The notes beneath the pieces were generated by a model. It did no database searches. It saw nothing but the letters and a program-made list of their open reading frames with translations, and was not told where the DNA came from. Both the position numbers and the translations under genes were made by a program. Positions 34,376 to 38,076 of a DNA stretch of 64,000 bases are shown piece after piece (position 1 is the first letter of the stretch; the number at the start of each line of letters is the position of its first letter). This DNA comes from Oscillospiraceae bacterium (GTDB taxonomy: Bacteria; Bacillota; Clostridia; Oscillospirales; Ruminococcaceae), in NCBI GenBank assembly GCA_021199795.1, contig JAJQHJ010000003.1:62001-126000 (forward strand), in the 5' to 3' direction.

Positions 34376-35368
34376 ATGACAATTCAACAGCTCAGATACG
34401 CAATCACAATTGCCGAAACCGGCTCATTCAATAAAGCCGCCGAGGTGCTCTATATAGCCCAGCCCTCTCTCACGAGCTCAATGCAGGAGCTCGAAAAGGA
34501 GCTTGGCATCACAATATTCTATAGAAGCGGCAGGGGAGCAACCCTCACGAACGACGGCGCAGAGTTTTTGTCATATGCAAGACAGCTCTACAGTCAGTAT
34601 GAATCCCTCGTCGAAAAGTACGGCAACCAGAGCTATAAGAAGAAGTTCGGTGTCTCCACTCAGCACTATTCCTTTGCCGTCAAAGCATTCGTTGAGCTTG
34701 TCAAGCACTACGATTCAGCCAAGTACGAATTCGCTATCCGTGAGACCAAGACCCGCGATGTCATTTCAGATGTCAGCACCATGAGAAGCGAGATAGGAAT
34801 TCTCTACCTTTGCGACTTCAACCGTGCCGCTATAACCAAAATTCTGAAAAGCAACAATCTTGAATTCCATCACCTCATCGAGTGCGACCCGTATGTTTAT
34901 CTCTGGAAAGGGCATCCGCTTGCAAATAACGAATCAATTGGCTTCGAGGAGCTCAGAGACTATCCCTGCCTTTCATTTGAGCAGGGCGACACCAGCTCTT
35001 TCTACTTTGCCGAAGAAATACTCAGCACTTCCGATTATGCCTACACGATAAAAGCCTGCGACCGTGCAACACTACTTAATCTGATGGTAGGTCTGAACGG
35101 CTACACCCTCTGCTCAGGAATCATCTGTGAAGAGCTGAACGGAAGCGATTATGTCGCGGTTCCATTTAGGACGGAGGACGAATCGGGGAGCAGAATGGAG
35201 ATAGGCTATATCACAAAAAAAGAATATTCGCCTGAGCTCACTTGCCAGGCAATACATAGAAGAAATGCAAAACTATCTGGGCACAAGGCACGGCAAGTAA
35301 TAGATTTTACCTATAGCTCACTATCCAAACGACGTATTGGACAAATCTGTTGCCTGGGTGTAAAATAG
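34376..35368 (+). CDS. LysR family transcriptional regulator
   Basis: A 330-residue LysR-type regulator with an N-terminal winged helix MTIQQLRYAITIAETGSFNK...AQPSLTSSMQELEKELG and a periplasmic-binding-like effector domain (about 90-300). It lies 57 bases upstream of metQ on the same strand and is the likely regulator of methionine uptake, in place of a SAM riboswitch, which is not visible. An inverted repeat GAATTG-N8-CAATTC at 35383-35402 is a candidate operator. The C-terminus (from about 305) is basic and unlike the usual LysR end. Confidence 0.93.
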   Translation: MTIQQLRYAITIAETGSFNKAAEVLYIAQPSLTSSMQELEKELGITIFYRSGRGATLTNDGAEFLSYARQLYSQYESLVEKYGNQSYKKKFGVSTQHYSFAVKAFVELVKHYDSAKYEFAIRETKTRDVISDVSTMRSEIGILYLCDFNRAAITKILKSNNLEFHHLIECDPYVYLWKGHPLANNESIGFEELRDYPCLSFEQGDTSSFYFAEEILSTSDYAYTIKACDRATLLNLMVGLNGYTLCSGIICEELNGSDYVAVPFRTEDESGSRMEIGYITKKEYSPELTCQAIHRRNAKLSGHKARQVIDFTYSSLSKRRIGQICCLGVK

Positions 35369-35425: not shown

Positions 35426-36283
35426 ATGAAAACTTTAAAGAAATTTGTATCACTTCTTTTGTGCGCAGTACTCTCACTCACACTTCTGACCGCCTGCGGC
35501 GACACCGATGATGTCATCACCATCGCAGTTCCTAACGACACCACCAATGAAGCAAGAGCACTTCTTCTTCTCGAAGAGCTCGGCTACATTACATTGAAAG
35601 ATGGCGCAGGAATCACCGCAACAGTCGCTGACATTGAGGACAACCCCTATGGCATCGAATTCAACGAAGTTGAAGCAGCACAGCTCCCTAACGTTCTTCA
35701 GGACGTTGACTATGCTATAATCAACTCTAACTACGCAATCGAGGCTGGTCTCAACCCGATTGACGACTCACTCGCAATTGAGGGCTCATCCTCCGCTTAT
35801 GGCAATGCCCTTGTAGTAAAGGAAGGAAACGAGGATACCGACAAGATCAAGGCTCTCCAGGCTGCCCTCGAAAGCCAGCAGGTCGCAGACTACATAGCTT
35901 CCGCTTATGATGGAGCAGTCGTAAGCACAGTTGACAACCCCGGCGACGGCTACGACGATACAGTCGACTATGACGCACTTGCAGGCACCACAATTTCCGT
36001 TGCCGCTTCACCTACTCCTCATGCTGAAATCCTTGCAGTTGCAAAGGAAATCCTTGCTGAAAAGGACATCACCCTCAACATCATCGAATATACCGACTAT
36101 GTTGTACCGAACAACGTTGTTGAGAGCGGCGAGGTTGACGCCAACTACTTCCAGCACACTCCTTACCTCGACGACTTCAATGAGCAGAACGGCACTCACC
36201 TTGTTGCTGTATCCGTTATCCACGTTGAGCCGATGGGTCTCTACGGCGGCAAGCAGTCTTCGCTCGACGCTATCACTGAGTAA
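35426..36283 (+). CDS. metQ: Methionine-binding lipoprotein MetQ/NlpA family, apparently circularly permuted
   Basis: A 285-residue lipoprotein (lipobox LLTAC, Cys24) that captures methionine outside the membrane for MetNI. Both lobes of the NlpA fold are recognisable but in reversed order. Residues 30-165 carry the segment that is normally C-terminal (VPNDTTNEARALLLLEELGY; EAAQLPNVLQDVDYAIINSN; NYAIEAGLNP). After a short acidic linker, residues 188-285 carry the segment that normally follows the signal peptide (SVAASPTPHAEIL; EYTDYVVPN; GEVDANYFQHTPYLDDFN; HVEPMGLYGGKQSSLD). The frame is open throughout and the total length is normal for MetQ, so it looks functional. It heads metQ-metN-metI. 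Confidence 0.93.
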   Translation: MKTLKKFVSLLLCAVLSLTLLTACGDTDDVITIAVPNDTTNEARALLLLEELGYITLKDGAGITATVADIEDNPYGIEFNEVEAAQLPNVLQDVDYAIINSNYAIEAGLNPIDDSLAIEGSSSAYGNALVVKEGNEDTDKIKALQAALESQQVADYIASAYDGAVVSTVDNPGDGYDDTVDYDALAGTTISVAASPTPHAEILAVAKEILAEKDITLNIIEYTDYVVPNNVVESGEVDANYFQHTPYLDDFNEQNGTHLVAVSVIHVEPMGLYGGKQSSLDAITE

Positions 36284-36365: not shown

Positions 36366-37376
36366 ATGATCGAAATCAAGAACCTGTCAAAGACATTCAC
36401 CACCAAATCCGGCGATGTCGAGGCACTTAAAAACATTTCCCTCACCATTCCTGACGGCGAGATATACGGAATCATCGGCATGAGTGGTGCAGGAAAGAGT
36501 ACCCTGGTGCGCTGTATCAATATGCTCGAACGCCCGACTGAGGGAAGCGTCCTTATTGACGGCGTAAATCTTAATGAGCTTTCCGAGGCTCAGCTCAGGC
36601 AGGAACGTCAGAAGATAACAATGATTTTCCAGGACTTCAACCTCCTGATGCAGCGAAACTGCCTTAAAAACGTCTGCTTTCCCTTGGAGCTAGCCGGAGT
36701 CAAAAAGTCGGATGCTGTCAAGAGAGCCATGGAGCTTCTTGAGCTCGTAGGTCTTGCGGATAAGGCTAAGAACTATCCGGCACAGCTTTCAGGCGGTCAG
36801 CAGCAAAGAGTTGCAATAGCAAGAGCCCTTGCAACCCACCCGAAGATTCTTCTTTGCGATGAGGCGACAAGTGCCCTAGACCCTCAGACTACCCACTCGA
36901 TTCTTTCGCTTATCCGTGATGTAAGAGACCGTCTAGGTCTTACCGTCATAGTAATAACCCATCAGATGAGCGTTGTTGAAGAGATATGCGGCAGGGTCGC
37001 GATTCTCAATGGTGGAGAAGTAGCCGAGGAGGGACCTGTTCAGGAGGTCTTTTCCGCACCAAAATCAGAGGCAGCAAAACGTCTTGTCTATCCGGACGGC
37101 TATTCCGAAACTCTGGTTCCCGCACCTGGCGAGCATTTCATCCGTGTTGTCTATAATGGTGCAGAGGTCAGCAAGACTCCACTTATCGCCCAGATGGCGG
37201 TGGATAGAAACATCACGGCAAGCATCCGTTCGGCATCAACCCGAAGCATCGGTGGCAAAGCCTATGGAAACATGCTCTTAAGCGTCACCGGTGATGAAAA
37301 GCTTGCCGAAGAAGCCATCAGCTATTTAAGAGAAATTCCCGACATAATCGCAGAGGAGGTAAAGGCAAATGCTTGA
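36366..37376 (+). CDS. metN: Methionine ABC transporter ATP-binding protein
   Basis: A 336-residue ATPase with Walker A GMSGAGKST (residues 38-46), signature LSGGQQQR, Walker B ILLCDEATSALDP and H-loop VITHQ. The C-terminal NIL domain (about 255-336, HFIRVVYNGAEVSKTPLIAQ) is the regulatory methionine-binding domain that mediates transinhibition in MetN. The ATG at 36366 follows AAAGGAG; an in-frame start 7 codons earlier is unlikely. It overlaps metI by 8 bases. Confidence 0.96.
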   Translation: MIEIKNLSKTFTTKSGDVEALKNISLTIPDGEIYGIIGMSGAGKSTLVRCINMLERPTEGSVLIDGVNLNELSEAQLRQERQKITMIFQDFNLLMQRNCLKNVCFPLELAGVKKSDAVKRAMELLELVGLADKAKNYPAQLSGGQQQRVAIARALATHPKILLCDEATSALDPQTTHSILSLIRDVRDRLGLTVIVITHQMSVVEEICGRVAILNGGEVAEEGPVQEVFSAPKSEAAKRLVYPDGYSETLVPAPGEHFIRVVYNGAEVSKTPLIAQMAVDRNITASIRSASTRSIGGKAYGNMLLSVTGDEKLAEEAISYLREIPDIIAEEVKANA

Positions 37377-38076
37377 TATATTCAGCTCAGAAGAGGTACA
37401 AGAAGCTCTTGAAATCTTCGTCCGTGAGTTTCCGACGGCAATCTGGGAGACGGTATACGTAACCGTGATTTCAACATTTTTCGCCGTCCTGATTGGTTTG
37501 CCACTTGGCGTAATCCTGGTTGCAGGGGACAAGGGCAAAATCTTAAAAATCCCATCAGGCGTTCTCCACGTCCTGAATGTCATAATAAACCTCCTCCGCT
37601 CAATCCCGTTCCTGATTCTTATGATAATGGTCTTCCCGCTGACAAGACTTATTGTCGGGACGGTTGTCGGAACAGTTGCGTCTATTGTCCCTCTCGTAAT
37701 CGCCGCATTCCCGTTTGTAGCAAGACTTGTTGAGACAAGCCTCCGCGAACTCGACCCGAACATAGTAGAAATGGCGCAGAGCATGGGCGCGAAGCCAATT
37801 CAGATCATTATGAAAGTAATGATCCCTGAGAGCATTCCATCGCTTCTTTCAAACTTTACAACCGCGATGACCACGATTTTAGGCTACTCCGCCATGAGCG
37901 GCATCATCGGCGGCGGTGGTCTCGGCAAAATCGCCATCAACTACGGCTACTACCGTTATCGTTACCTGGTAATGCTGTTAGCTGTAGTCTTCCTGATATT
38001 ATTGGTTCAGATTATTCAGACTGTTGGCACTCACCTGGCAACCAAACTTGACCGTAGACCCAGAGACAGGGCGTAA
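37369..38076 (+). CDS. metI: Methionine ABC transporter permease
   Basis: A 235-residue permease with about five membrane segments, the MetI signature NLLRSIPFLILMI and an EAA-type coupling loop (RELDPNIVEMAQSMGAKPIQ). The conserved YSAMSGIIGGGGLGKIA region follows. Last gene of the metQNI operon, ending at the terminator at 38111. Confidence 0.96.
   Translation: MLDIFSSEEVQEALEIFVREFPTAIWETVYVTVISTFFAVLIGLPLGVILVAGDKGKILKIPSGVLHVLNVIINLLRSIPFLILMIMVFPLTRLIVGTVVGTVASIVPLVIAAFPFVARLVETSLRELDPNIVEMAQSMGAKPIQIIMKVMIPESIPSLLSNFTTAMTTILGYSAMSGIIGGGGLGKIAINYGYYRYRYLVMLLAVVFLILLVQIIQTVGTHLATKLDRRPRDRA

Follow-up and report, generated by a model that had tools for sequence, protein, structure and literature searches.

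The 64,000-nucleotide stretch of Oscillospiraceae DNA analysed here (the window) encodes a MetQ/NlpA lipoprotein of 285 aa (metQ*; 35426..36283, + strand, stop included) that, based on its open reading frame and on Pfam, PDB-sequence and genome searches, is circularly permuted. metQ* is very probably a working methionine-binding lipoprotein whose chain was permuted in nature. Taken together with its relatives, the best reading is that a working MetQ was circularly permuted repeatedly in nature, for which we infer both the function and the route of origin.

Order of the MetQ halves and gene neighbourhood

The metQ* frame starts with ATG and stops with TAA. Its product begins with MKTLKK...LLTAC24, continues with ITIAVPNDTTNEARALLLLEEL ... 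AAQLPNVLQDVDYAIINSNY ... YDGAVVSTV, passes through an acidic linker (DNPGDGYDDTVDYDALAG) and then reads TTISVAASPTPHAEIL ... EPMGLYGGKQSSLDAITE up to the stop. In the Pfam search (hmmscan), the protein matches Lipoprotein_9 (PF03180) with an E-value of 8e-80 and 267.8 bits (cut-off 27), which excludes a chance match, and no other Pfam family was found at E 0.001. The profile is covered over both of its parts, in two stretches of non-canonical order: the better one places residues 32-167 on profile positions 99-234 of 236, and profile positions 1-96 were located by genome search downstream of it within the same 297-codon open frame. Furthermore, all 22 PDB chains found with phmmer were aligned as two stretches, and the best of them (4ib2) pairs metQ* residues 188-285 with chain residues 11-108 and residues 33-166 with chain residues 112-249, which is the reversed order. 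The swapped halves that a preliminary description had read from the sequence are thereby confirmed, as the comparison with Lipoprotein_9 returned the reversed and not the canonical order of matches.

The signal peptide and lipobox (35426..35497, +) end at Cys24, a putative lipidation site predicted from the LTAC motif and invariant in all 40 aligned proteins of the window-like arrangement (type A). They are followed by the canonical C-terminal half, now N-terminal (residues 31-167; 35516..35926, +; Pfam, phmmer and alignment), the linker between the old termini (residues 168-187; 35927..35986, +; alignment of 40 proteins) and the canonical mature N-terminal half, now C-terminal (residues 188-285; 35987..36280, +; phmmer, genome search and alignment). 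The halves are exchanged around the canonical turn SLDEL-PDG-A / I-VPND, and metQ* retains only part of the canonical DELPDG turn at its break. The lipobox cysteine, the junction near residue 188 and the acidic linker, previously placed at about 166-187 and here at about 168-187, were borne out. Within the linker, G175, Y182 and G187 are invariant in 40 of 40 type A proteins, which, judged by this conservation, sets it apart from a random-sequence loop; the predicted model has pLDDT block means of 90-98 over residues 161-190. In total, 63 columns are invariant among the 40 type A proteins. A profile comparison of the two metQ* halves (hhalign) gave no signal of an internal repeat (probability 0.5%).

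The frame is open as stated in the preliminary description, and its supposedly normal length needs correction, since the linker makes metQ*, at 285 aa, somewhat longer than most of the canonical relatives fetched (mostly 264-280 aa, few up to 312). The NCBIfam MetQ models remain below their cut-offs with metQ* (TIGR00363, 164.4 of 228.85 bits), and the canonical L084 passes TIGR00363 with 245 bits and fails NF008285 (240 of 374). The low score of metQ*, which domain tools return as two half-matches, is explained by the split match, an explanation that is not proof of equivalence.

As described before, metQ* is followed on the same strand by both pump genes: metN (36366..37376, +; Pfam) encodes an ABC ATPase with a NIL domain that matches NCBIfam ABC_MetN with E 5e-109 and 364 bits (under the cut-off of 500), and metI (37369..38076, +; Pfam) encodes the permease, which reaches 200 bits with the NCBIfam MetI model (cut-off 212). 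A LysR-type regulator (34376..35368, +; Pfam and locus comparison) lies upstream. Among the 47 type A rows checked, the LysR gene lies before metQ* in the window, in the 10 rows closest to it, which share further neighbours as well, and in L075. In 42 of these 47 rows, metN and metI lie directly 3' of metQ* and share its strand; three of the other five have metN only and two have neither, four of the five having little downstream DNA or metN only and one without pump genes (L057) being at a contig end. No metN or metI matches were found in the 1,494 downstream bases of the type A locus L080 (G128). The RNA families of the window comprise two tRNAs only, with no methionine-linked RNA switch at gathering score, and no methionine-linked leader reached that score in 12 type A loci scanned, of which L046 and L056 have less than 520 bases upstream.

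Occurrence and number of permutation events

A survey of related Clostridia, of the kind proposed in the preliminary description, found the same order in same-genus genomes, in genomes sampled across the class, in the genus of Faecalibacterium sp. An122 and in a named Vescimonas strain. Counting the genome of the window itself, 7 of the 25 genomes from the genus carry metQ* as a one-piece full-length match with 90-100% identity; of the other 18, three have distant matches in canonical order only (G003, G018, G019), two have weak signal-peptide matches only (G007, G011) and 13 have no match. In the class, 18 of 391 sampled genomes from ten family codes carry it, and one of the families with carriers (f20) also includes a genome with two half matches in canonical order (G080). 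Among 32 loci found in the named collection, 30 are permuted (29 window-like, one of a second arrangement, type B) and two are canonical (L062, L064); the permuted loci include the Faecalibacterium sp. An121 and An122 records, which carry no MAG label. In the genus to which Faecalibacterium sp. An122 belongs, 30 of 31 genomes contain the family, with swapped order in all 30, one of which (G1139) has an additional canonical-order copy. Vescimonas fastidiosa MM35 encodes a permuted protein (WP_212820853.1) followed by the ATPase and the permease, and this protein is annotated as a plain MetQ/NlpA binding protein. At E 1e-6, the permuted form is the sole family member in 45 of 46 genome handles, two of which (G048 and G815) are apparently a single assembly; the remaining genome, which contains L062, is canonical. 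Among viral contigs, 11 stretches matched the search pattern and none encoded a relative.

Because the order recurs in many genomes, it is not an assembly artefact. Given this recurrence, a chimera or annotation artefact that joined two gene fragments, for which the 43 contigs of the window genome and the preponderance of MAGs among the carriers in the named collection might speak, is very unlikely and carries next to no weight, as separately assembled genomes, including the non-MAG An121/An122 and MM35, share the order together with a like linker and operon.

Several variants of the permuted gene were observed. The metQ* proteins of Faecalibacterium (L055, L052-L054, L059, L060 and L063) start with a twin-arginine type signal, identified by a Pfam TAT_signal match in L055 and by an RR motif in the others; the window protein has no such match. 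One genome (G816, L043) carries two separate permuted metQ copies. Two permuted genes are broken, one by an in-frame TAG at codon 251 (L041 in G001) and one, in the An122 genus, by being split over two frames (L162 in G1153).

Type B is represented by a Solobacterium MAG (L061), in which the NPHGYEIV loop forms the start of the mature protein and ...VPNDTDNYGRAIDFLN...GTINN its end, giving Lipoprotein_9 matches to profile positions 114-234 and then 1-122. G889 has the same arrangement (profile 123-235, then 1-125) with 70% identity to L061. The type B break lies about 25 positions further than that of type A, and metN and metI follow metQ* in both loci. The closest canonical kin of type B (L097 in G985) is metQ-first and has a Thr in place of the pocket His.

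A third arrangement (type C; L128-L142) was identified in Subdoligranulum variabile TSDC17.2-1.1 (L128) and relatives in 14 of 297 genomes of the An122 family, a search in which 54 genomes matched, 14 with type C and 9 with type A, and 10 of the other 31 were inspected and all found canonical. Type C shares with type A the family and the turn at which the chain is broken, and differs in clade, in linker (about 13 residues of other sequence), in operon order and, in L128, by a T-box. The order metN-metI-metQ* was found in 13 of 15 type C loci (L140 is short of DNA and L134 has an odd match order) and is shared by the canonical sisters of type C (L153-L156), to which the type C halves show 61-74% identity versus 44-62% to ten type A rows. 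The sequence SLDELADGAVIGIPADATNGGRALLLLQDLG of the canonical L154 corresponds in the L128 protein (type C) to an end in SLDVFGK and a start, after the signal, with YQIGIPADATNGGRALLLLQDLG.

T-box leaders were identified directly before the type B metQ* (L061, 4581-4825) and before metN of the type C operon (L128, 2086-2341), and both contain C-AUG-G-CC after the GAA of stem I. At what we take to be the site of the specifier codon, AUG would correspond to methionine; both T-boxes thus have an apparent Met specifier.

metQ precedes those pump genes that were found in 47 of 49 type A and B rows (the other two show no pump gene), versus canonical rows in which it is last in 43 of 51, first in four and without a visible pump gene in four. 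A link between permutation and metQ-first operons was considered and dropped, as type C has the order metN-metI-metQ* and the canonical L097 is already metQ-first.

For phylogenetic analysis, halves were rearranged into canonical order in 86 rows, comprising 27 from the 57 rows of type A, 8 from the 15 of type C, both of type B, and 49 from the 58 canonical ones, of which nine long or odd sequences were set aside by choice. In this tree, type A forms a clade (100/100), type B forms a clade (100/99) with the canonical L097 as its sister (100/99), and type C (100/99) is nested in canonical rows (100/92 and 100/97). A single clade of all permutants was rejected by the AU test (p=0.0006). Pairwise constraints gave borderline values (A+C, p 0.043; A+B, p 0.057), and earlier sets gave no rejection (A+B, p 0.104; A+C, p 0.184), the lower values being obtained only in the set with the close canonical sisters of type C; by themselves, the pairwise tests would not show three events. 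The best reading of these sequence comparisons is nevertheless that types A, B and C represent three separate permutation events, because the breaks differ between A and B, linkers and operon orders differ between A and C, and B and C have canonical sisters.

Ligand residues, sequence constraint and predicted structure

MetQ is a Venus-flytrap lipoprotein that passes methionine to MetNI, and in Neisseria its lipid is described as required for maximal stimulation of MetNI (PMC8416018). The methionine contacts given for the Neisseria protein NmMetQ are R156, N213 and N238 in one domain and Y81, F98, H100 and Y103 in the other, the Arg and the two Asn holding the alpha-amino and carboxyl groups of the ligand (PMC6739813). 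By motif and spacing, these correspond to R44, N102 and N127 in the first-placed half of metQ* and to Y225, F242, H244 and Y247 in its second-placed half, with the R156-N213 spacing off by one between the two proteins. All seven residues are retained in 57 of 57 type A rows, of which L147 and L148 duplicate the genes of L055 and L059, and L041 and L057 are shortened by a stop and a contig end, respectively. They are likewise complete in all 15 type C rows, and both type B rows retain six of seven, with Thr replacing the pocket His.

In comparisons of the mature protein with six close relatives (three known to be of the same genus), dN was 0.034-0.045 versus a dS of 0.71-1.05; in four more distant comparisons, dS was saturated and gave no usable value in three. 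The two broken copies mentioned above might suggest that metQ* is a decaying, non-functional remnant, an idea that we regard as highly improbable in view of the open frame and lipobox, the low dN relative to dS in the six comparisons, the 63 invariant columns in 40 proteins and the lack of a second family member in 45 of 46 genome handles.

The predicted structure of metQ* is confident (pLDDT 89.5, pTM 0.80), and its residues 28-172 align to NmMetQ 140-282, where 142 residues superpose on the open form (6cva) with an rmsd of 2.2; the alignment is sequential and superposes one half but not the swapped half at the same time. The prediction and superposition proposed in the preliminary description thus yielded a confident model, with a match to NmMetQ that covers one half. 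The type B model has a pLDDT of 31.5 and was built from an alignment of only two sequences.

The claim that the permuted protein is functional appears well supported by its recurrence, by the low dN relative to dS and by the conserved ligand residues, and a role of metQ* as a working MetQ is well supported on the same comparative grounds. metQ* would fold as an ordinary two-lobed MetQ trap, bind methionine between its lobes and feed the MetN-MetI pump encoded beside it. The lipobox now precedes the half with the Arg and the two Asn, which would attach the lipid anchor to the lobe that does not carry it in canonical MetQ.

A genuine permutation combined with a change of ligand, for instance to another amino acid or a peptide, would be in line with the unreached NCBIfam cut-offs, with the finding that no RNA switch linked to methionine reached gathering score in the window or in 12 type A loci, and with the Thr that replaces the pocket His in type B as well as in its canonical sister L097. 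Against such a change, which we consider improbable, types A and C retain all seven NmMetQ methionine contacts, the adjoining MetN has a NIL domain, and one operon each of types B and C follows a T-box whose specifier appears to be that for Met.

Origin and relation to known binding proteins

Duplication followed by deletion is the usual route by which natural permutants arise. The permutations of MetQ may have originated in this way, by in-frame tandem duplication of metQ and subsequent loss of the outer halves, as the preliminary description had supposed. This route is plausible in that tandem metQ genes exist: G159 contains three tandem canonical metQ genes after metI (L125:440-2995, +), which possibly represent the kind of precursor required. 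No fused double or 1.5-length metQ intermediate was found among the genes examined. Candidate long frames were rejected as intermediates, namely a different binding protein fused to MetQ (G126), canonical genes whose upstream frame is open where long (G1288, G1416 and G1447) and a type C gene (G1213). The G126 fusion (L126:1949-3604, -) encodes 552 aa, with a binding protein that by eye looks like an amino-acid type before the canonical MetQ, and is followed by metN and metI. Two other loci (L114 in G837 and L117 in G849) contain frames of about 480-490 aa with a MetI-like part before a canonical MetQ and metN upstream, which are apparent MetI-MetQ fusions.

The missing intermediate would also fit a working but neutral permutant of other origin, for example by fission and re-fusion or by shuffling between two metQ genes, and a mixed source of the halves is conceivable, as the tree used both halves together. 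Since tandem metQ genes do exist, we regard such an origin as a real, if less probable, possibility.

In the predicted model, the permuted chain begins immediately ahead of strand one of the second lobe. The permutation was probably tolerated because this position matches the place of the old start in the first lobe. The new chain order would resemble an ordinary type II binding protein with its lobes exchanged, an argument drawn from the succession of strands and helices and from matches over the full length, several of which have a large rmsd.

Compared with known MetQ/NlpA proteins (PF03180; NmMetQ and E. coli MetQ), metQ* has the same two mature halves, seven ligand residues, lipobox and accompanying metN and metI. 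It differs from NmMetQ and E. coli MetQ in that the halves are swapped and the old termini are joined by a 20-residue linker, and its anchor precedes the half that is C-terminal in known MetQ. Our searches of open-access papers in PubMed Central showed no report of a permuted MetQ, and published cases of ABC binding proteins that are permuted in nature seem to be rare, with one found. This is Tp0684 (TpMglB-2) of Treponema pallidum, a crystallised lipoprotein that binds glucose, is circularly permuted and is assigned to 'Type Ic / Cluster Bc'; its authors mention related proteins in gut and Gram-positive bacteria and offer speculation on anchoring (PMC4990184). Like TpMglB-2, for which ligand binding is reported there, metQ* is a naturally permuted binding lipoprotein of an ABC importer encoded beside transporter genes. 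Retention of the fold in metQ* is predicted from its model. TpMglB-2 is of another binding-protein type with another ligand, and metQ*, which matches PF03180 as its only Pfam family, lies outside the sugar-binding type I group. Furthermore, the permuted part of TpMglB-2 is described as poorly conserved and perhaps derived from another gene (PMC4990184). Both halves of metQ* are instead well matched by single canonical proteins, with N- and C-half identities of 65/59% (L084), 60/56% (L018) and 69/50% (L062), and more than one event occurred in MetQ.

An adaptive interpretation is that the convergent permutations, by placing the anchor on the Arg/Asn/Asn lobe in three events, turned MetQ round relative to MetNI and thereby altered methionine capture, opening or release in gut Firmicutes; we offer this tentatively and consider it rather unlikely. 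Beyond the preliminary description, the permuted form is widespread, and two further permutants occur in separate clades. In the genomes examined from the genus of Faecalibacterium, MetQ is permuted, and such a gene is annotated as plain MetQ in Vescimonas. With three permutants in separate clades of one family, MetQ represents a replicated natural experiment, in which two permutants have close canonical sisters and type C has kept its pump genes and gene order unchanged. The MetQ permutants thus allow asking whether such rearrangements are neutral or useful, how they have arisen, and whether it makes a difference to the importer where the lipid anchor is attached.
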